Part shown: positions 2,179-32,387 of the stretch, one piece after another
How the letters are laid out: every line of letters starts with the position of its first letter
Position numbering within the stretch: position 1 is the first letter of the stretch
NCBI GenBank assembly: GCA_017460665.1
Contig: JAFUAO010000094.1
Span: 1 to 32,387 of the forward strand
Direction: 5' to 3'
Source of the DNA: Ruminococcus sp.
Lineage (GTDB): Bacteria; Bacillota; Clostridia; Oscillospirales; Ruminococcaceae
DNA length: 32,387 nucleotides
Notes under the pieces: generated by a model
Seen by the model: only the letters and a program-made list of their open reading frames with translations
Told to the model about the DNA's origin: nothing
The model's database searches: none
Translations under genes and position numbers: made by a program

Positions 2179-4575
2179 ATGAAGAATTCATTATTCAAGA
2201 GAGTCGTAGCTGCAGCTTCCGCTGTTCCGCTTGCTCTCACACAGTGCTTGACCGTTGCCAACGCTGTATCTGTCAATGATGCTGCTCTTTCGTTGAACGA
2301 CCAGGCTGTTTCAGCTGCGGACGCTAAGGACGTTACCATTGATGTTCTTCTTAACATTGTTCCCGATGAGAGCGATGGCGTTAAGTACGAAGAGATCACC
2401 GGCAGCCAGACGATCATCAGCGGCGAGACTGCTGACGAGCTCATTGCTGAGTACGCAAACGGCAGAGACGATGCAAAGGTCCTGACAAAGGATTCTGAGT
2501 GGAATCTCACAGCTTATTCCTACATCCAGCAGGCTATCCAGTCCGGCAAGACTTCCGGCAAGGTAGATATCTCCGACCTGGTAGACTACGTTGTAAAGAA
2601 CAGCGGCGCCCACAAGGAGATCGTTGAGAGAGCTTTCGGCTTCCTCAGTGACGTTACTTATGAGCTCCAGAGCAACGGCGACGTTGTATTCAAGGCTTCA
2701 CTGGCTGAGCCCGTATTCTACGGCACAGTCGATAAGTCTGTAGGCAAGGTGCTCTACAGCTACGGGGTTTATCCTGTTGATTTCTCATCTGTAGATGTAA
2801 CAGGTGACTTCACACTTACTATCGGTTCTTCTGCTCTGTCTGCTGACACAGAGGTACCTGTAAAGTTCGTGTTCGATTCAAACGCTAAGGGCGCTGTTTA
2901 TGCAGCAGGTCTCCCTGACTTCGCTCTTGATACAGTTGCTCAGATCAAGTCTCTTGCTCTTGATGCTATCGCAAAGTCTGACCTTTCCTCTTCCGATAAG
3001 GAGAAGGCAAGCGCAGAGGTAGCTGCAGAGGCTGATTTCTACACAAAGAAGTTCACTCAGGCTAAGAACGAGATCGCTCGTGACCTGAAGATCAACAGAG
3101 AGGGCGAGTTCGATAACGTTGCTGGTCTCATCGCTGAGATCAACAAGGCTATCCAGAACAGAGGCTACAAGAAGCAGCTCCCTGCTACAGCTTCTGACAT
3201 CGCTGCTAACGAGACAGTTTCTAAGGCCTATGCAAAGGCTCTTGAGCAGATCAATCAGGCTGCCGGCTCTTACACAGTAAGCATCTCCGCTTCTGAGCTG
3301 GGCGCTGCTATCGATGCTATCTACGACATCACTGCTTCTATCAAGAACGGTGTCGCTGAGGCATTCGGCAAGTACGAGGACGCTGAGGCTGGCGATGTTG
3401 CTGCATTCTTCGCTTCTGAGTACGAGATCCCCACAGAGTATGAAGTTCTGGCTGATTTCAAGGCCGGTACTGCTAAGGTAGATGCTACAGGCGTAAACTC
3501 TGAGACAGCTGCTGTTCTTTCCGGCGACTTCCAGAGAGTAGTTGTTATCGCTCCCGTTACTACTACAACAACTACAACAACTACAACTGAGACAACTACT
3601 ACAACTACTGAGACAACAACATCAGCCACAACAGAGGCTACAACTGAGGCCACAACAGAGGCTACTACAGTTGCTACAACTGAGGCTACTACAGTTGCCA
3701 CAACAGAGGCTACTACAGTTGCTACAACAGAGGCAACTACAGAAGCTACAACTGAGGCCACAACAGAGGCTACTACAGCCGCTACAACAGAGGCTACAAC
3801 AACAACTACTGTAACTGCTACAGATCCTTACGGACGTACGATGCACAATGTTGATGTTACAGCCGCTAACGTACACATCGACTCCAACGTTGGCTTCTAC
3901 CTGAACATCGACGAGGAGTTCAACATCGGCCAGATCAACGACATCTACTACAGCCAGGACGTAACTCGTCTTTGGTACTATGACGATGACAATACTCTTG
4001 CAAGCTCCGAGACACTTTCTCAGGGCACAAGATTTGACATCGACGTTGCTGACCTCGACTTCGGCGATCAGAAGCCCGAGAACAGCTACACTCCCGGTTC
4101 AACTCAGTTCGCTTATCCGATCACAGTTTATGCTAAGAACGACATCGACGGTCTTGGCGTAAAGGCTGGCGATCCTCTGAAGTTCGTAGGCGAGAACGAC
4201 GTAACAGTTATCGCTTACATCGGCGTAAAGGGCGACGCTGACTTGGATCACATCGCTGACGCTACAGATGCTACTGCTTGCCTGGTCTACTACGCAAGCA
4301 TGATGACCGGCGGCACACCTGAGACAGTTCAGTTCTCTACCAGCAAGCTGGTAAGCGGTCCTGATGATATCCTGGATCAGTTCGCAGCATTCCTTGCTGA
4401 CGTTGACGCTGAGTACACACCTGAAGAGCGTGTAGCTACAAACTACAAGGATTACAAGCTCGTAAGAAAGATCACAGCAGAGGATGCTACCTTCATCCTG
4501 AAGGCATACGCTGACATCATGACTTCTTCTGAGCCTAACCCCAACAGAGCGTTCTGGAACACAGTGCTCTACTAA
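2179..4575 (+). CDS. cttA: CttA-like cell-surface substrate-binding protein with X-dockerin dyad
   Basis: Secreted protein of 798 residues. The ATG at 2179 is preferred because it gives a normal signal peptide (MKNSLFKRVV...ANA-VS) with GAGAGG upstream; an in-frame ATG at 2158 would add seven residues. Residues 30-455 form a large domain region I do not recognise: beta-type segments first, then long Ala/Lys/Glu-rich helical stretches. A Thr-rich linker (about 460-548) with TTEAT repeats leads to an X module (about 549-680) and a dockerin (683-790). Loop 1 has D686, D688, D690, D697. Loop 2 runs from D741 to D769 and so carries 17 extra residues, similar to but longer than in ScaB. In R. flavefaciens CttA binds cellulose and docks onto ScaE through XDoc. 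Gene order scaB-cttA-scaE is the main reason for the name; substrate binding by this N-terminal region is inference. Confidence 0.82.
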   Translation: MKNSLFKRVVAAASAVPLALTQCLTVANAVSVNDAALSLNDQAVSAADAKDVTIDVLLNIVPDESDGVKYEEITGSQTIISGETADELIAEYANGRDDAKVLTKDSEWNLTAYSYIQQAIQSGKTSGKVDISDLVDYVVKNSGAHKEIVERAFGFLSDVTYELQSNGDVVFKASLAEPVFYGTVDKSVGKVLYSYGVYPVDFSSVDVTGDFTLTIGSSALSADTEVPVKFVFDSNAKGAVYAAGLPDFALDTVAQIKSLALDAIAKSDLSSSDKEKASAEVAAEADFYTKKFTQAKNEIARDLKINREGEFDNVAGLIAEINKAIQNRGYKKQLPATASDIAANETVSKAYAKALEQINQAAGSYTVSISASELGAAIDAIYDITASIKNGVAEAFGKYEDAEAGDVAAFFASEYEIPTEYEVLADFKAGTAKVDATGVNSETAAVLSGDFQRVVVIAPVTTTTTTTTTTETTTTTTETTTSATTEATTEATTEATTVATTEATTVATTEATTVATTEATTEATTEATTEATTAATTEATTTTTVTATDPYGRTMHNVDVTAANVHIDSNVGFYLNIDEEFNIGQINDIYYSQDVTRLWYYDDDNTLASSETLSQGTRFDIDVADLDFGDQKPENSYTPGSTQFAYPITVYAKNDIDGLGVKAGDPLKFVGENDVTVIAYIGVKGDADLDHIADATDATACLVYYASMMTGGTPETVQFSTSKLVSGPDDILDQFAAFLADVDAEYTPEERVATNYKDYKLVRKITAEDATFILKAYADIMTSSEPNPNRAFWNTVLY

Positions 4576-4668: not shown

Positions 4669-5739
4669 ATGAAGAAGAATTCTTTCAAGAAGGCTCTCGC
4701 TTTAGTAGCTGCAACTGCCGCAGTAGCAGCTATGCCTTCTGTATCTGCATTCGCTATCAATGGCGACGGCGGCTATGACGCAAACACTATCGCTGCTTCT
4801 GCTATCAAGCCTAAGTTCGAGGTAACAAAGGTAGTTATCTCTCAGGAAGATGCTGCAGCTGGCAAGGCTCAGACTATCGAGGTAAAGGTAAACGCTGATC
4901 AGGGCGATACCCCCTACTACGCTTCTACCGGTCTCCACATTTACTACGATGAAAATCTCACTATCGGCGTAGACCGTCTGAAGAACCTCGCTGTAACAAA
5001 GGGCGACGGCTCCGAGCTTCTCAACGGTATCACAGTTAAGGAAGATCCTACAGCTCCTGCTGGATTCAAGGGCTTCTTCGTTGCTACAGGCGCTGACGCC
5101 GACAAGGGCTTCGACGGTGTATTCGTTTCATTCACACTGACTGCTCCTACAACTGCTCAGCCCGGTGATGTATTCCCCATCAACCTGCTCTACATCGAGA
5201 ACGACTTTGGTACTGACCTCTTTGCTAAGGTAAAGAAGGACACAGAAGAGTCCAAGATCATGCAGGCTTACGCTTTCACACAGGGTATCTTTACACCTGA
5301 GCACCTTGTAACTGCTGCTGATGATCCCAACGGCAAGATCGTTGGTACTGAGTACGACGGCTACATCGCTATCGAGGGCGAGACTACTACTACAACTACA
5401 ACTGCAACAACTACTACAACTACTACAACTACAACTACAACAACAGCTACCACAACTGCTGCTCCTGCTACAACAACTACAACTGAGGCTCCTGTAGCTA
5501 CAACTACAACTGAGGCTCCCGTTGTTGTAACAACAACAGAGGCTTCTAAGGTAACTGGTGCTAACACAACTAAGGCTGGCGGCACAACAAAGGCTGCTAC
5601 AACCAAGGCTGGTGCAAAGACAACTGCTAAGGCAACAAATGCTCCTAAGACAGGCGTTGCTGGCGTAGGCGTTGCTGCTGCTGGTCTGGCTATCGCAGTT
5701 GGTACAGCATTCGTTCTCAGAAAGAGAGAGGAAGACTAA
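4669..5739 (+). CDS. scaE: ScaE cell-wall anchoring scaffoldin (single cohesin, sortase-type C terminus)
   Basis: 356 residues, ATG with GAAAGGA about 10 bases upstream. Signal peptide 1-29 (ends SAFA), one cohesin-like domain about 45-238, then a Thr/Ala linker (239-322). The C-terminal anchor is NAPKTG (324-329), an Ala/Gly/Val-rich membrane segment and a basic-acidic RKREED tail. This is the signal-cohesin-linker-anchor layout of ruminococcal ScaE, whose cohesin binds XDoc dyads of ScaB and CttA and which sortase links to the wall. The sorting motif has Ala where LPXTG has Leu. Being directly downstream of cttA and two genes from scaB supports the name. Which XDoc partners this cohesin accepts cannot be read from the sequence. 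Confidence 0.88.
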   Translation: MKKNSFKKALALVAATAAVAAMPSVSAFAINGDGGYDANTIAASAIKPKFEVTKVVISQEDAAAGKAQTIEVKVNADQGDTPYYASTGLHIYYDENLTIGVDRLKNLAVTKGDGSELLNGITVKEDPTAPAGFKGFFVATGADADKGFDGVFVSFTLTAPTTAQPGDVFPINLLYIENDFGTDLFAKVKKDTEESKIMQAYAFTQGIFTPEHLVTAADDPNGKIVGTEYDGYIAIEGETTTTTTTATTTTTTTTTTTTTATTTAAPATTTTTEAPVATTTTEAPVVVTTTEASKVTGANTTKAGGTTKAATTKAGAKTTAKATNAPKTGVAGVGVAAAGLAIAVGTAFVLRKREED

Positions 5740-9463: not shown

Positions 9464-9498
9464 GTAAAATACAGCGCCGTTTTAAGATCATCAAAAAT

Positions 9499-9667
9499 GG
9501 GTTTCCAAAGGGATCACATCCCTTTGGCGGAGTCCAGAGGCAGAGCCTCTGGCAGGGTTTGGGGCAGAGCCCCAATGCGTTGAAGCGCCTCGCAAGGGGT
9601 GAATGAAAAAACAGTCCGGCGGACTGTTTTTTCAGAGGGGACGCCTTGCAAGTGAAGGCGTCCCCTT
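9499..9667 (+). repeat. 169-bp multi-hairpin dispersed repeat, copy A
   Basis: Consecutive palindromes: CCAAAGGGAT/ATCCCTTTGG; CCAGAGGC-AGA-GCCTCTGG; TTGGGGC-AGA-GCCCCAA; AAAAAACAGTCC/GGACTGTTTTTT; and GGGGACGCCTT/AAGGCGTCCCC. The reverse complement recurs at 26038-26206 with the same length and about four differences counted by eye. The fourth hairpin ends in TTTTTTC and could terminate the ung-metF operon. No protein is encoded. Confidence 0.9.
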
Positions 9668-21702: not shown

Positions 21703-23409
21703 TTATGCGGCGGGGTGAACTGTCACGGTATAGACGCCGTCGCTGTAGTCGTCTATTGTGATCTTGATGCCGGTCTCGACAGTGGCCAGGCCACTGCTGT
21801 CGTACCAGCGGAAGTCAGGAACTGAGCTGTCGATAGCACTGCCCTGACGGAAGAAGTTGTCGGTCTCGTCGGTGCCTTCGCCGATCAGCCTGATGAAGCG
21901 CCGGCCGGCATCGTAGTTGGTAGCCTCGTCCTCACCGCTGGCGTATTTCCAGTAGGGGTAATACTGGTCGCCGTTGTAGGTGGCCTCAGCGTGGAAGGCA
22001 CGAACGCCCTCGCCCTGAGCCATCCACCAGTAGGTGTTGTTGGACTTTCCGTTGCCGTTCATTGTTGCGAACTCAAGGATCATGAACTCTGAGCGGTACT
22101 TGTCGCCCAGGGTCCCGTTGGGGATGATCAGGCAGTTGCCCTCATCTGAGCAGCTATCGTATAGCTTGAAGGTCTGCTCTCCGGCGGAGGGATCGTAGAT
22201 CTGGATCTGGTCCTGCTTGTACCAGCCCAGCATGAGCTTGCAGAGGGATCCGAAGTCTCCCACAGCGTCGTCCATTATCTCGAAGCCGGCCGAACCGTGG
22301 AGGCCCTCCCAGTCGGAGGTGTTGTTGTACAGGTAGAAGTCCGGAAGGCCCATACAGTGGCCCATTTCGTGGAGGTTGGTCCTTACGAAGTCGCCGTAGT
22401 CGCTCTCGGAGGAGATCTCATGAGCTCCCACGATGACGTGGCCGATCTGCATACCGTCCACACGCTTCCTCCAGTCGCCGCCGTATCCGCCGGCGCAGGA
22501 GTGCCAGAAATCGCTGCCGTTCTTCTCGTTGGCGGCATTGGGGACACAGATCGAGATAGCGTCGATCACGCCGTCGCTGTCGCCGTCGTACTGGGTGAAG
22601 TCCACCTGACTGTCAAGGCTGTCCAGCACCTCGTCGATGAGCTCCACGAACCATGCGTTGGTCTCATAGGCGGAGGCGTTGTTCTTGGTGGTATAGCGGA
22701 AGGCGTCGCCGGTGACGGTGACGGCTCCCTTTGAGGAGCGTGAGTAGAAGGCGTTTATGCTCTCATAGGGATAGGCCGTGGAGGAGCTGTCAGGGCTCCC
22801 GAAGAATATCTGCTCGATGAAGTCGGTGGAGGGATCGAAGGTATACCTCACATCGGGGAAGTCCACATACACTGTCAGGACCCTTGCCTCGCCCTGAGAG
22901 GGGAGAGAGCCGTAGAGGTCGTAGATCGGCGGGTCGATGAACTCGTCCGAGACTGGCTCAGTGACAACAGTGGTGGTGGTCACAGGAGGAGCCGTAGTGA
23001 CCGGGGCGGTGGTGACCTCCGGCTCGGCCACCCACTTATACACGGGAGCTCCCCAGCTCAGCGAGACATATTCTCTGAGCTGGATCAGGTCGAAGACGTT
23101 GACCTTTTTGTTCTGGTCGATGTCAGCCGTTTCCACGAAAGCAGTGGAGAAGCGGTCTGCGCCGTTGATGGAAACGAAGGTATCCTCGCCCAACTGGATA
23201 CCGTTCTCGTACTCCAAGGCCTTAGCACCGTGGAGGTGCCTGGCCAGGACCACAAGGTCTGCGGAATTGACCTCGTTATCGCCGTTGAGGTCGCCCATGA
23301 TCCCGCATTTTTCCCAGTCTGCGCTGGCTGAGAGGGAGGGCAGCGCAGCACTGACAGCTATACCTGCGGCAGCGGCTATCAGTGCGCCTGTGAGTTTTTT
23401 CACGTTCAT
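21703..23409 (-). CDS. Secreted M6-like metallopeptidase with N-terminal dockerin
   Basis: 568 residues, AAAGGAG before the ATG. Signal peptide 1-30 (ends SASA). A dockerin follows directly: loop 1 D40-x-N42-x-D44...D51 (GDLNGDNEVNSADLVVLARHL) and loop 2 D96-x-D98-x-N100...D107 (DIDQNKKVNVFDLIQL). About 20 more residues than usual separate the two loops. After a short Thr/Pro/Val linker comes an immune-inhibitor-A-type peptidase: VLTVYVDFPDVRYTF, YDGDSDGVIDA, and the zinc motif HEMGHCMGLPD (H347, E348, H351, D357). Family M6 enzymes are secreted zinc proteases. The dockerin implies recruitment to a cohesin on the cell surface. Targets are unknown: scaffoldin maturation, feed protein and host protein are all possible. 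Confidence 0.9.
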   Translation of the reverse strand: MNVKKLTGALIAAAAGIAVSAALPSLSASADWEKCGIMGDLNGDNEVNSADLVVLARHLHGAKALEYENGIQLGEDTFVSINGADRFSTAFVETADIDQNKKVNVFDLIQLREYVSLSWGAPVYKWVAEPEVTTAPVTTAPPVTTTTVVTEPVSDEFIDPPIYDLYGSLPSQGEARVLTVYVDFPDVRYTFDPSTDFIEQIFFGSPDSSSTAYPYESINAFYSRSSKGAVTVTGDAFRYTTKNNASAYETNAWFVELIDEVLDSLDSQVDFTQYDGDSDGVIDAISICVPNAANEKNGSDFWHSCAGGYGGDWRKRVDGMQIGHVIVGAHEISSESDYGDFVRTNLHEMGHCMGLPDFYLYNNTSDWEGLHGSAGFEIMDDAVGDFGSLCKLMLGWYKQDQIQIYDPSAGEQTFKLYDSCSDEGNCLIIPNGTLGDKYRSEFMILEFATMNGNGKSNNTYWWMAQGEGVRAFHAEATYNGDQYYPYWKYASGEDEATNYDAGRRFIRLIGEGTDETDNFFRQGSAIDSSVPDFRWYDSSGLATVETGIKITIDDYSDGVYTVTVHPAA

Positions 23410-25537: not shown

Positions 25538-25981
25538 GTGGAGGTGATCTTAGCACTGATCATTATCATAGTCCTGCTGACGATCCTTGGAGTAAAGGGA
25601 GAGATGATCGTTGCCGGGATCATAGGGCTGATCTGTCTCGGGATCGGAGCTATGGGGCTGATGTTTTTGTATATGTGCATAAGGCTCATGCTCTCGAAGA
25701 GGCGCAAGGCTCAGTTCGTCCGCATCGACACCGCCCCGAAGGGCGGGTTCAAGGTGGCTTATTATGCGATCGACGGAGCAGTGTACCCCTGCGTTTTCCC
25801 CAGCGAGATGATCCTCAACGACAAGATGTACCGCCCGGAGCGCACCTACACTGTCATGTACAGCCGGCGCATGGGGAAGGTGTTCGATATATGGACGATA
25901 CTGACCTGCGTCCTGGGACTTATCTGCTCGGCCTTTATGTGCGGAGGGATAGTGTACCTGCTGATCGGTGTATTCAGATAG
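25538..25981 (+). CDS. Hypothetical membrane protein
   Basis: 147 residues starting at GTG with GGGAGG upstream. Two adjoining N-terminal membrane helices (1-20 and 24-50) are followed by a soluble segment (about 53-112) containing FVRIDTAPKGGFKVAYYAIDGAVYPCVFPSEMILNDKMYRPERTYTVMYSRRMGKVF. A C-terminal helix (116-145) closes the protein. The soluble part reads like a small beta domain with a pattern seen in uncharacterised Gram-positive membrane proteins that carry a DUF3592-like domain; this is a weak resemblance. It has its own promoter and no clear partner. Confidence 0.65.
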   Translation: MEVILALIIIIVLLTILGVKGEMIVAGIIGLICLGIGAMGLMFLYMCIRLMLSKRRKAQFVRIDTAPKGGFKVAYYAIDGAVYPCVFPSEMILNDKMYRPERTYTVMYSRRMGKVFDIWTILTCVLGLICSAFMCGGIVYLLIGVFR

Positions 25982-26037
25982 GCGAAAGATCCGGCAAGCC
26001 GGCCAGCGGCTTGCGGCGAGAAATATGTGACTGTGGG

Positions 26038-26206
26038 AAGGGGACGCCTTCACTTGCAAGGCGTCCCCTCTGAAAAAACAGTCCCCCGGACTGTTTTTTC
26101 ATTCACCCCTTGCGAGGCGCTTCAACGCATTGGGGCGCTGCCCCAAGCCCCGCCAGAGGCTCTGCCTCTGGACTCCGCCAAAGGGATGTGATCCCTTTGG
26201 AAACCC
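26038..26206 (-). repeat. 169-bp multi-hairpin dispersed repeat, copy B (inverted)
   Basis: Reverse complement of 9499-9667, same length, with about four differences by eye. One difference (C to G) lies in the small loop of the AAAAAACAGTCC hairpin. It fills almost the whole gap between the 25538 gene and the arsR-type gene, leaving 51 bases for any arsR promoter. Confidence 0.9.
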
Positions 26207-26257
26207 GATCTTTATCTATTTCAGCCAACTTTATCTTTTCCGAAAAGGAGCAAAAAT

Positions 26258-26608
26258 ATGGAAGAACATATCTGCGGAGAGTGTGGGGTCCACCAGGACA
26301 TCGTTGACCGTGTGTCCAAGGTCATGCCCGACGAGTCTCTCCTCTACGACGCCGCCGAGCTGCTGAAGGTCTTCGGCGACTCCACAAGGATACGCATCAT
26401 CTTCGTCCTCTGCCAGAGCGAGATGTGCGTCTGCGACATCGCCGACCTGCTGGGGATGACCCAGTCAGCGATCTCTCACCAGCTCCGTGTGCTGAAGCAG
26501 GCTCGCCTGGTCAGCGCCCGGCGTGAGGGAAAGACCATTTTCTATTCGCTCTGCGACGACCATGTGAAGAAGATCTTCTATGCCGCCATGGAGCACGTTA
26601 TGGAGTGA
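26258..26608 (+). CDS. ArsR/SmtB-family metal-sensing repressor
   Basis: 116 residues, AAAAGGAG upstream. The winged helix is clear: LLKVFGDSTRIRIIFVL, CVCDIADLLGMTQSAISHQLRVLKQARLVSARREGKTIFYSL. Two metal sites can be read. The alpha-3N type has CVC (C57, C59) plus N-terminal Cys6/Cys9. The alpha-5 type fits D-x-H-x10-H-x-x-E exactly (D100, H102, H113, E116). CadC of S. aureus carries both site types, so zinc, cadmium or lead sensing is likely. The usual neighbour, a metal efflux pump, is absent; the next gene, 3 bases on, is an amidohydrolase. No clear operator or promoter is seen in the 51 bases upstream. Confidence 0.93.
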   Translation: MEEHICGECGVHQDIVDRVSKVMPDESLLYDAAELLKVFGDSTRIRIIFVLCQSEMCVCDIADLLGMTQSAISHQLRVLKQARLVSARREGKTIFYSLCDDHVKKIFYAAMEHVME

Positions 26609-29236: not shown

Positions 29237-29323
29237 GCGAGTGTGCTGGAATAGGCAGACAGGCTAGCTTGAGGTGCTAGTGTTGGAAACGACGTGTGGG
29301 TTCAAGTCCCGTCACTCGCACCA
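29237..29323 (+). tRNA. tRNA-Leu (anticodon GAG)
   Basis: 87 nt with an encoded CCA. The acceptor stem GCGAGTG pairs with CACTCGC. The anticodon stem CTAGC/GCTAG encloses TTGAGGT, giving anticodon GAG, for CUC/CUU leucine codons. A long variable arm (about 29280-29297) marks a class II tRNA, and TTCAAGT is the T loop. Confidence 0.95.
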
Positions 29324-29656: not shown

Positions 29657-29787
29657 GACGATCTCTCCTTGAAGTTCAGTAATGCAATATATCTCAAAGC
29701 CGGAGCTTTGTCAAGACTTTGGGCGTTTAGCTGCAAAAAAATTAACAAGTTCTATTATTGTTTGCTTCATCAAATTGCCCGAAACCA

Positions 29788-29816
29788 TTGCAATATGGCC
29801 GAAAATGTGCTATCAT
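29788..29816 (+). promoter_or_regulatory. Promoter of the GH5 gene
   Basis: TTGCAA (29788-29793), 17 bases, TATCAT (29811-29816) with extended TGC. It lies inside the long open frame upstream and so supports the later start at 29850. Confidence 0.65.
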
Positions 29817-29849
29817 AGGGTCAGTATGATGATAATAGAGGGAGAAGCT

Positions 29850-31919
29850 ATGAAAAAATATATCTCAGCGATCTTGGCTGCCGCTGTAATGGCAGTCTCA
29901 TTTGCCGGCTGCGGAGAAAAGTCCTCGCCGGCCCAGAGCAGCTCTCAGGCGCCGTCGGAGAGCTCCGAGGCTGTGACCGACGTCCCGGATGAGGCTCCTC
30001 AGCAGGAAACTGAGCCCCCCACGGAGGCTCCTACCGAGCACATAAGCCCCTTGGAGACCCTCTCCGCTCAGTGTGCGGCTCAGGTGAGCGTTGACAAGAC
30101 GATCGGCCGTGAGGAGGGCAGCAACACGATCCAGCTCCCCTTGGCGGACTTCATCGAGGAGGGCGACAGGATCAGTTCCTTCACCTTCGTGATCTATTCC
30201 GGCGACGGCAGCGACATCGGCACCTTCAAGGGCGGCTGCGGTATCTCAGTGAACGGCGACTGCCCCTCAGCCACCGACGAGGGCTGGTTCCAGTCCGAGG
30301 ACTTCTCGGCCCCCACTCAGGGCACCTACGGTGAGATCCGGTGGGACGTCCCCGGGGATATCGCCGACTACGTTTCCGCCGGAGGAGATGTGCTATTCGG
30401 CTATTGGTGGGGAGGAGCAGGCTCTGTGCGGCTGGACAGCGTGATCTGCACCTTCGACCGCACCCGTCAGATCCCTGTTGACGGCACAGTGACCCAGAAC
30501 GTGGGCAAGAGCGTGAGCTACAGCGATAAAAACCCTTCTCTCAGGGTCCCTACCGCTGACTTCCTTCCCAGCGGATCAGTACCCCAGGCTATCACCTTCA
30601 ACGTGAGCTCCACGGGATCCTTCGGGAAGTTCACGGGAGCCTTCTGCTATCAGTCCGGCGAGGGCTATTATCAGTCCCCGGATACGGCGGTGTTTACCGA
30701 CAGCTCGTCAGTTTCGCTGACATGGTTCGTGCCTGATGAGGCAAAAAAATACGTTGCAGAGGACGGTGAGATAGTGCTGGGATATTGGTGGAGCCAGCAG
30801 CCCGGGGCTACCCTTGATTCCATAACGGTGAAGTACAGCCTCGGCAGCGGCGCAGCGGCAGCAGCTCCGGCTCCTGCAAAGACCGACGACGAGCCGGCTC
30901 AGCCCTCCTCCACAGGCTTTAGGAGCGCCAAGGAGATCGCAGGGGAGCTGAAGGTGGGCTGGAATTTGGGCAACACCCTCGACAGCTATGATACGAATAA
31001 GTCAGGGATCTCCACCGAGACCGGCTGGGGAAATCCCAAGACCACCGAGGAGATGCTCCTGAGCGTGAAGAACGCCGGGTTCAACGCAGTCCGGATCCCT
31101 GTGACCTGGGGCGAGCACATGGACGGCGATACGATCCAGACCGAGTGGCTGGACCGTGTGCAGGAGGTGGTAGACTACGCCTATAACAACGGCCTGTACG
31201 TTATCCTGAATATGCACCACGACGACTATATCTGGTTCGTGCCGGATGATGGGCAGTACGCCGCCAACAGCGCCAAGCTGAAAAAGATCTGGGAGCAGAT
31301 CTGCGCCCGTTTCGGCGATTACGGCGACAGGCTCCTCTTTGAGGGTATGAACGAGCCCCGTACCGTTGGCAGCGCCAACGAGTGGATGGGCGGCACCGCT
31401 GCTGAGAGGGCAGTAGTGAACAAGTACGAGCAGGACTTCGTGGACACCGTGAGGGCTTCCGGCGGAAACAACGCCGACAGGACCCTGATCGTCACCACCT
31501 ACGGGGCCTCTGCTGAGGCCGCCGCCATGAACGACCTTGTGATCCCGGACGACGGCAACATCATACTTTCGCTGCACTATTATGCTCCGTGGAGGTTCGC
31601 AAACGGCGATACTACCAGCTTTGGGGACAGCGAGAAGTCTGAGCTGGACGGGAAGTTCTCTGACATAAACTCACGGTTCGTCAGCAAGGGCGTGCCGGTG
31701 ATCATTGGCGAGTTCGGCTGTGTTGCGAAGGCAGACGACGCAACGAGGGCGGACTACTACAGGTATTACATCTCGTCGGCGCTCTCACACGGGATAAGCT
31801 GCTGCTTTATCTGGGACAACGGCGTGGCGGCCGGCAAGGACGGCTACGCTATGCTGAACAGGTACACGCTGACGTGGAACGACACGATCCTTCCTGCGAT
31901 CATGGAGGGAGCGAAGTGA
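29850..31919 (+). CDS. GH5 endoglucanase lipoprotein with two tandem carbohydrate-binding-like modules
   Basis: 689 residues from the ATG at 29850 (GAGGGAG upstream); the frame is open from 29682 but that stretch contains the promoter. Lipoprotein signal ends SFAGC (Cys21), then a Ser/Pro/Glu tether. Two related beta modules follow (about 64-205 and 208-331), sharing VLFGYWWGGAGSVRLDS and IVLGYWWSQQPGATLDS; they look like ruminococcal carbohydrate-binding modules. The GH5 domain (about 358-688) has WNLGNTLDSYDT, TGWGNPKTTEEML, NAVRIPVTW, LNMHHDD, the acid/base Glu502 in NEP and the nucleophile Glu621 in GEFG, most like subfamily GH5_4 (beta-glucanase/xyloglucanase/cellulase). It has no dockerin and so is predicted to act on the membrane surface rather than in the cellulosome. 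Confidence 0.92.
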   Translation: MKKYISAILAAAVMAVSFAGCGEKSSPAQSSSQAPSESSEAVTDVPDEAPQQETEPPTEAPTEHISPLETLSAQCAAQVSVDKTIGREEGSNTIQLPLADFIEEGDRISSFTFVIYSGDGSDIGTFKGGCGISVNGDCPSATDEGWFQSEDFSAPTQGTYGEIRWDVPGDIADYVSAGGDVLFGYWWGGAGSVRLDSVICTFDRTRQIPVDGTVTQNVGKSVSYSDKNPSLRVPTADFLPSGSVPQAITFNVSSTGSFGKFTGAFCYQSGEGYYQSPDTAVFTDSSSVSLTWFVPDEAKKYVAEDGEIVLGYWWSQQPGATLDSITVKYSLGSGAAAAAPAPAKTDDEPAQPSSTGFRSAKEIAGELKVGWNLGNTLDSYDTNKSGISTETGWGNPKTTEEMLLSVKNAGFNAVRIPVTWGEHMDGDTIQTEWLDRVQEVVDYAYNNGLYVILNMHHDDYIWFVPDDGQYAANSAKLKKIWEQICARFGDYGDRLLFEGMNEPRTVGSANEWMGGTAAERAVVNKYEQDFVDTVRASGGNNADRTLIVTTYGASAEAAAMNDLVIPDDGNIILSLHYYAPWRFANGDTTSFGDSEKSELDGKFSDINSRFVSKGVPVIIGEFGCVAKADDATRADYYRYYISSALSHGISCCFIWDNGVAAGKDGYAMLNRYTLTWNDTILPAIMEGAK

Positions 31920-31948
31920 AAAAGGGACGGCTCATGCCGTCCCTTTTT
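31919..31948 (+). terminator. Rho-independent terminator after the GH5 gene
   Basis: AAAAAGGGACGGC pairs with GCCGTCCCTTTTT around TCAT, starting at the stop codon. Confidence 0.93.
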
Positions 31949-31949
31949 A

Positions 31950-32008
31950 GTTGCGAGTTATTAGTGCGTAGTTATTAGTTGTTGTGTCCGCCTGACGGCG
32001 GACGTATT
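31950..32008 (+). repeat. Composite AT-tail/GTCCGCC hairpin element, variant 3
   Basis: TTATTAGT-type repeats (GAGTTATTAGT, GTAGTTATTAGT) lead into TTGTTGT, the hairpin GTCCGCC/GGCGGAC (31986-32003) and GTATT. The hairpin matches that at 16110-16200 in reverse orientation. Confidence 0.6.
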
Positions 32009-32127
32009 TGTAGGGGCGAACATCGTTCGCCCGTGCCTCCAGAAAAACTGTAGGGACGGCCATTGGCCGTCCGGCGGCTTGCTATAACGTACCGGCGAAA
32101 ATTGTAGGGGCGAATTCCGTTCGCCCG
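32009..32127 (+). repeat. Three REP-like TGTAGGG hairpins
   Basis: Units of 25 bases start at 32009, 32049 and 32103. Each begins TGTAGGGRCG and ends CGYCCG, with a perfect stem: GGGCGAAC/GTTCGCCC, GGACGGCC/GGCCGTCC and GGGCGAA/TTCGCCC. The stem bases change in pairs between units. Spacer sequences between them are unrelated. Confidence 0.8.
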
Positions 32128-32210
32128 GCCGTTTTTGAAACACCGCCTCGTTCAACGAAACATACCTCGTTGCTGCTGAGCGGCAAGGCCCACCTAATGG
32201 ACCGGTGGAA

Positions 32211-32387
32211 GGGGACGCTCTCTGCTAAAGCATATAGCATCGCCAGCCAGATCAAAGATCTGGGGCGCTGCTTAACTTGCAGAGCGTCCCCAGCTAAAGC
32301 ATATAGCATCGCCAGCCAGATCAAAGATCTGGGGCGCTGCTTAACTTGCAGAGCGTCCCCAGCTAAAGCATATAGCATCGCCAGCCA
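32211..32387 (+). repeat. 69-bp structured tandem repeat, cut by the window end
   Basis: Units start at 32224, 32293 and 32362 (the last incomplete) and look identical. The first unit is enclosed by an 11-bp inverted repeat, GGGGACGCTCT (32211-32221) and AGAGCGTCCCC (32281-32291). Inside, CGCC-AG-CCAGATC-AAA-GATCTGG-GGCG (32241-32267) forms a hairpin flanked by AGCA/TGCT. There are no unique spacers. The array continues beyond the window. Confidence 0.9.

Follow-up and report, generated by a model that had tools for sequence, protein, structure and literature searches.

A probably mobile hairpin module nested in palindromic host repeats, with 69-bp tandem units at a contig end of a Ruminococcus draft genome

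The right-hand end of a 32,387-nucleotide contig from Ruminococcus sp. carries a short and highly regular repeat, which raises two questions: what the repeated unit is, and how it came to stand in tandem. The window analysed here is the whole of this contig (C78, 32,387 nucleotides), one of 104 in a 2.87-Mb draft genome (G000, the source genome). As the last base of the window, 32387, is the contig end, the array runs into an assembly break. An initial annotation had described a structured 69-bp tandem array at this position, and TRF indeed returned one array, at 32224-32387, with a period of 69, 2.4 copies and units that match at 100%; a second repeat search was concordant. Its full extent may be no more than two or three units. 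Its units abut without spacers and thus lack the unique spacers between repeats that define a CRISPR.

Each 69-bp unit is composed of a 51-nt module (GCTAAAGCATATAGC...GCTTA) and the 18-nt ACTTGCAGAGCGTCCCCA. The module is laid out as CATATAGC...CCAGATC-AAA-GATCTGG...GCTTA, and the rest of the unit is the 3' arm of an enclosing hairpin. On the plus strand, the left part of a host element, termed E (GTTGC.GCTGAGCGGCAAGG...GGACCGGTGGAA), occupies 32165-32210. The same genome has 13 other E-type copies, and 10 of them are preceded on the left by similar sequence; the exceptions are L010, where a contig end cuts it, L021, where it has diverged, and L017, which is without it. The 5' arm of the enclosing hairpin, GGGGACGCTCT (32211-32221), follows and forms an 11-bp inverted repeat with AGAGCGTCCCC (32281-32291), enclosing the first module. 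Module copy 1 (32224-32274) lies in the hairpin loop, at site i of E; it is covered by a match to covariance model R1, which comprises the long hairpin of the module and its flanks (32218-32275, 71.9 bits), and has an exact 13+13 bp empty site. Next come the 3' arm ACTTGCAGAGCGTCCCC and the A preceding the following module (32275-32292). Module copy 2 (32293-32343; R1 match 32287-32344, 71.9 bits) is the same as copy 1 at 49/49 compared bases. It is flanked on the left as at site ii of E and on the right as at site i, and a second copy of the 3' arm and its A stands at 32344-32361. Module copy 3 is cut by the contig end after its first 26 bases (32362-32387), just before the base that separates the GATC from the AATC module types of this genome. 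When folded as DNA, the segment 32208-32361 reaches -41.7 kcal/mol against a shuffle mean of -23.4 (z -7.16; 0/200 shuffles equally good), which, with the 11-bp inverted repeat, bears out the initial description of hairpin-forming units with an 11-bp closing stem.

The gene neighbouring the array encodes a GH5 cellulase (29682-31919), with a tRNA gene (29237-29320) upstream of it. Between the cellulase gene and the array, three GTAG-headed small palindromes stand in a row at 32008-32127 on the plus strand (32008-32033, 32048-32073 and 32102-32127), recognised from the repeat search and from loci of relatives, where similar palindromes are module hosts. Elsewhere in the window, tandem repeats at 191-443, 3559-3822 and 5383-5544 lie in ORFs encoding Thr-rich TTTEAPA-like linkers, and a dockerin match falls in 21703-23409.

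The initial annotation had further proposed kinship between the array and a 169-bp repeat. We take this repeat to be the pair 9490-9667 (minus strand) and 26038-26215 (plus strand), which are 96% identical over 178 bp (98% over 169 bp), and 26038-26215 to be its copy B. Sequence comparison identifies both as host element E without a module, copy B with sites i and ii empty, and the kinship is confirmed: the 169-bp repeat is the same element lacking the insert. E is a dispersed repeat, of which GGGGACGC...GCGTCCCC forms a part, and a search of the genome with copy B yielded 65 matching pieces, several of which may belong to one copy. Its two module sites are the loop of the GGGGACGC hairpin (site i) and the position just after that hairpin (site ii).

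Model R1 finds 22 matches in the source genome, of which two lie in the window, 13 in E and seven in an unrelated palindrome, GGGCGGA...GGTCCGCC (L022-L026, L259, L260). All 20 matches outside the window array are single modules, not arrayed. Site i is occupied in L009-L017 and in L020 (cut), and site ii in L018, L019 and L021; the loop reads TCGAAG in the three site-ii modules and TCAAAG or TCATAG in the site-i modules. The initial annotation had named an absence of copies elsewhere as an observation that would speak against it; many module copies exist. It had also considered an origin-like locus, which a unit with 22 matches around the genome does not suggest.

In many subfamilies, the module has a small 5' hairpin followed by CATATA and by a long hairpin whose loop is three bases; its end is TTA. 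We assembled 143 module copies, 78 of them distinct, and aligned 49 of these 78; the consensus structure was chosen from folds of single modules. On the alignment, 19 pairs are paired in 91.5% of cells, with a covariation score of 0.275 compared to 0.114 for shuffled and at most 0.060 for slid alignments. The long hairpin is 97% paired and has six pairs in which both sides have changed, whereas pairing in the small 5' hairpin is only 71%, because several subfamilies do not form this hairpin in the register used. In two of the five covariation measures, the alignment does not rise above the shuffles, namely both-side changes (9 vs 7.7; 119/500) and further pair types (16 vs 19.1; 494/500). Among 258 fetched overlapping loci, the left part leads into the long hairpin in 117/117 cases, and the long hairpin is preceded by the left part in 243/243. 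Modules are also mostly intergenic, with 10/123 midpoints in ORFs of at least 150 aa against 4150/5040 random points.

These features bear on two alternative natures of the unit. The initial annotation had remarked that the 69-base period is a whole number of codons (23), and a minus-strand frame of 101 aa does run off the contig end. Yet a coding minisatellite with a 23-residue repeat is extremely improbable, given that substitutions preserve base pairs, that modules are mostly intergenic and that other close module spacings are 74, 56, 118 and 172; the codon multiple looks like coincidence. Base-pair covariation and intergenic location would suit a functional RNA element, such as a regulator, an sRNA or part of a terminator, that was selected and spread without being a parasite. 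We consider such an element very unlikely: the module is not found in 92/125 genomes of the genus, it sits within other repeats of several kinds, no Rfam family covers it at gathering score in the window and nine loci, and no promoter- or terminator-like match lies over the array or at the empty copy B. The suggestion of an sRNA-producing locus likewise found no backing, in that over the window only the tRNA at 29237-29320 reaches the Rfam gathering score, with 13 sub-threshold matches in 31900-32387.

Known RNA families were also considered as identities of the module, and Rfam returned only the tRNA and an S10 leader (L105) from the window and nine loci, none for the module. Two of the 13 weak matches, Twister-sister (14.8 bits) and HIV_GSL3 (15.2 bits), overlap the array region far under their cut-offs and are taken as chance matches (E up to 10). 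As for a terminator, none was predicted at 25900-26300, and the one site at 32108-32126, against 0.5 expected, lies outside the array.

The module is restricted in its distribution. R1 matches occur in 33/125 genomes of the genus, where searches over more than 40 genomes ran with stricter filters; seven genomes have at least 10 matches and 16 have one. The richest carrier, G008, has at least 44, a lower bound because no more than 44 candidates were scored. Among 100 genomes sampled from the family, R1 gave no match in 98 genomes of 98 other genera. A pattern scan of species genomes returned 90 stretches, and the 80 listed titles are all Ruminococcus or MC2020 records filed as Anaerotruncus; a search of phage records, plasmid records and viral contigs gave no match. 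As found, the module family is carried by some Ruminococcus, in the R. flavefaciens group, and represents a new family within a general kind that is already known. No description of it was found among the literature matches listed, which covered few subscription papers.

Comparison of occupied and empty loci indicates that the module is inserted as a discrete piece. Of the 143 copies, 44 have an exact 13+13 bp module-free counterpart in the fetched loci, and after removal of two that are head-to-tail neighbours (L079), 42 exact empty sites were retained, at none of which a target-site duplication was seen beyond one ambiguous base. In 69/138 flank pairs, the module is enclosed by a perfect stem with 7 or more bp, compared to 41/3000 random positions. 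The other 69/138 fail this 7-bp test, and site ii lies outside the hairpin loop. When flanks are re-paired at random among modules, 384/2760 still pass, because the hosts are related. In terms of labels, 116/139 flank pairs are the matching halves of one host, either at one of the two E sites or under one of eight further palindrome labels; some of these eight labels possibly denote one palindrome in opposite orientations. Nine of the 139 bear no label on either side. The 14 rows with unequal flanks divide into the window's own array, six hybrids, and seven that are label failures or unclear (L017, L065, L078, L142, L201, L205, L218). The six hybrids, identified by eye, join halves of two host types (L067, L073, L094, L096, L187, L194). 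No module split by a gene, as an autonomous parent would be, was present in the 258 fetched loci.

On this comparative evidence, the module is probably a small mobile, hairpin-forming DNA unit. We infer that it moves actively and that its insertion is directed by loops or single strands. The module is 51-58 nt long, gene-free and dispersed in many copies, as is characteristic of MITEs; terminal inverted repeats and target-site duplications, also characteristic of MITEs, were not seen. As to the former, six folded modules form one or two separate hairpins with unpaired ends, and by eye the two ends in alignment A1 show no inverted repeat. A broader proposal, which we put forward tentatively, holds that the modules are mobile hairpins of minimal size that have specialised in the loops of several palindromic host types, moved by an enzyme via single-stranded hairpin targets, reshuffling their hosts by recombination and growing arrays from two sites in one host.

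Which enzyme might act on such a unit was addressed in the window and across genomes. The initial annotation had suggested a check for a reverse transcriptase or transposase gene next to the array and had considered a retron-like locus, in which a reverse transcriptase would accompany the msr-msd; neither found support: the 10 window proteins tested, from 19140 rightwards, match no reverse transcriptase or transposase family, and the sole RVT_1 match of the genome lies on contig C94, which has no module match. A Y1 transposase of the IS200/IS605 or RAYT type could move the module as its minimal non-autonomous relative, an idea compatible with an origin of the array by recombination. We searched 24 genomes for PF01797 (Y1_Tnp), the IS200-like family. 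The absence of target duplication and the hairpins near the module ends favour this candidate, as do Y1_Tnp matches of at least 76 bits in the carriers G000, G019, G038 (whose best match has an in-frame stop), G043 and G050; a weaker match (31 bits) occurs in G035 and one below the cut-off in G058. However, no Y1_Tnp was detected at E<=1e-3 in the carriers G008 (99% complete), G004, G033, G044, G006, G048 and G005, the genomes G032 and G010 have strong matches although the module was not detected in them, and the RAYT gene flanked by its repeat that is typical of GTAG REPs was not encountered, the fetched flanks of seven of the best Y1 genes (two also inspected by eye) and the loci L224, L226 and L227 being without a module. 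A Y1 transposase is rather unlikely as the mover, and is rejected as an obligatory partner, not being consistently present in carriers.

How the tandem units arose can be approached through the occupancy of E. The module number seen in this host is 0, 1 (at i or ii) or 2, and more than two occur only at the contig end of the window. In relatives, both sites are filled in eight distinct elements with a spacing of 74 (L063, L073, L154, L187, L190, L214, L219, L223). In 8/8 of these, the second module belongs to a different subtype (36-43/49 identical), and E continues as usual to its right. The second unit of the window differs in being a hybrid, with the position of site ii, the sequence of site i and a site-i right arm next to it, and this fits what recombination between site-i and site-ii modules predicts.

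We therefore favour, with a probability of roughly 60%, a recombination-derived local duplication of the nested hairpin module, in which the second unit is real. A non-autonomous module of 51-58 nt would insert as one unit, without target duplication and often into palindrome loops. Once sites i and ii of one E were both filled, the 3' hairpin arm would stand between two modules, and these modules, by recombining unequally or through replication slippage, would yield tandem units of module plus arm, 69 bp in length. The initial proposal that the array grew from a member of the 169-bp repeat family is upheld in this form, with recombination as the presumed source. Exchanges and duplications of this kind seem to happen, as six further hybrids exist and L079 is a head-to-tail module dimer (48/49 identical) inside a 432-kb contig. 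Against recombination count the differing subtypes and the usual continuation of E in the eight two-site elements, and that no second array of the 69-bp type was found in the loci examined.

Alternatively, and somewhat less probably, the array is an assembly artefact: the locus would in truth hold two modules, at sites i and ii, and the assembler would have traversed a 69-bp graph loop a single time before it halted at a fork. The window ends where the contig ends, and 12/21 module loci of the source genome are no more than 250 bp away from a contig end (C78, C71, C97, C102, C46, C12, C7, C104, C1, C83, C14, C10), so that many breaks of the draft fall at the module or its hosts. The GATC and AATC module types share their sequence up to the final base of the window, none of the eight two-site elements of relatives has a third unit, and the start of contig C26, ACTTGCAGAGCGTCCCCTCTGAAAAAAC, could be the right edge of the locus, or part of an empty E copy. 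On the other hand, none of the other contigs examined shows the junction TTAACTTGCAGAGCGTCCCCA-GCTAAAGC, and two consecutive modules are therefore probably real. The AATC type occurs both at site i (C81, C83) and at site ii (C85, C104), and the break point is accordingly not a clean fork between the two sites; a break at this base is also what an unequal crossover would leave. Contig ends overlap the fetched loci by 0 to 119 bases, and these values reveal no assembler word length.

Among known systems, the module appears by analogy to work most like the pneumococcal BOX element, and also resembles BrickBuilt. In BOX of Streptococcus pneumoniae (boxA-boxB-boxC), the tandem number of boxB varies and repeats insert into one another (PMC3049150). 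The likeness, one of organisation and not of compared sequences, lies in a dispersed, structured composite repeat with nested repeats and possibly with an inner module of variable tandem number (PMC3049150). In contrast, that account gives terminal inverted repeats and target duplications for BOX, whereas neither was seen for the module, which also occurs alone in many other palindromes (PMC3049150). BrickBuilt of Porphyromonas gingivalis is likewise an intergenic, MITE-like element with a head-to-tail array, a minisatellite, as presented in its abstract (PMC4596501); its units are 23 nt long, and the abstract mentions no module nested in hairpin loops (PMC4596501). GTAG REPs are, like the module, small and structured, and several module hosts are themselves GTAG-headed small palindromes (PMC3733652). 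The module differs in its length of 51-58 nt and in having no GTAG head, and Ruminococcus is absent from the main text of the paper (PMC3733652). Within alignment A1, GTAG at the hairpin foot is absent from the modules; it is found in several hosts. Insertion sequences that target REPs share insertion into palindromic repeats (PMC1525189), but are described there as full insertion sequences, whereas the module is gene-free (PMC1525189).

The module has clean empty sites and a defined structure, and one of its hosts holds two fixed sites for it. As a mobile unit it would be very small, and it lends itself to a simple test of hairpin loops as targets of transposition. If module number varies between strains, such loci could serve for typing, as BOX does in pneumococcus. 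A larger array with this module is seen in the richest carrier, where three tandem 172-bp units at L097 (G008:C2, about 735-1130) each contain one nested module together with neighbouring GTAG palindromes.
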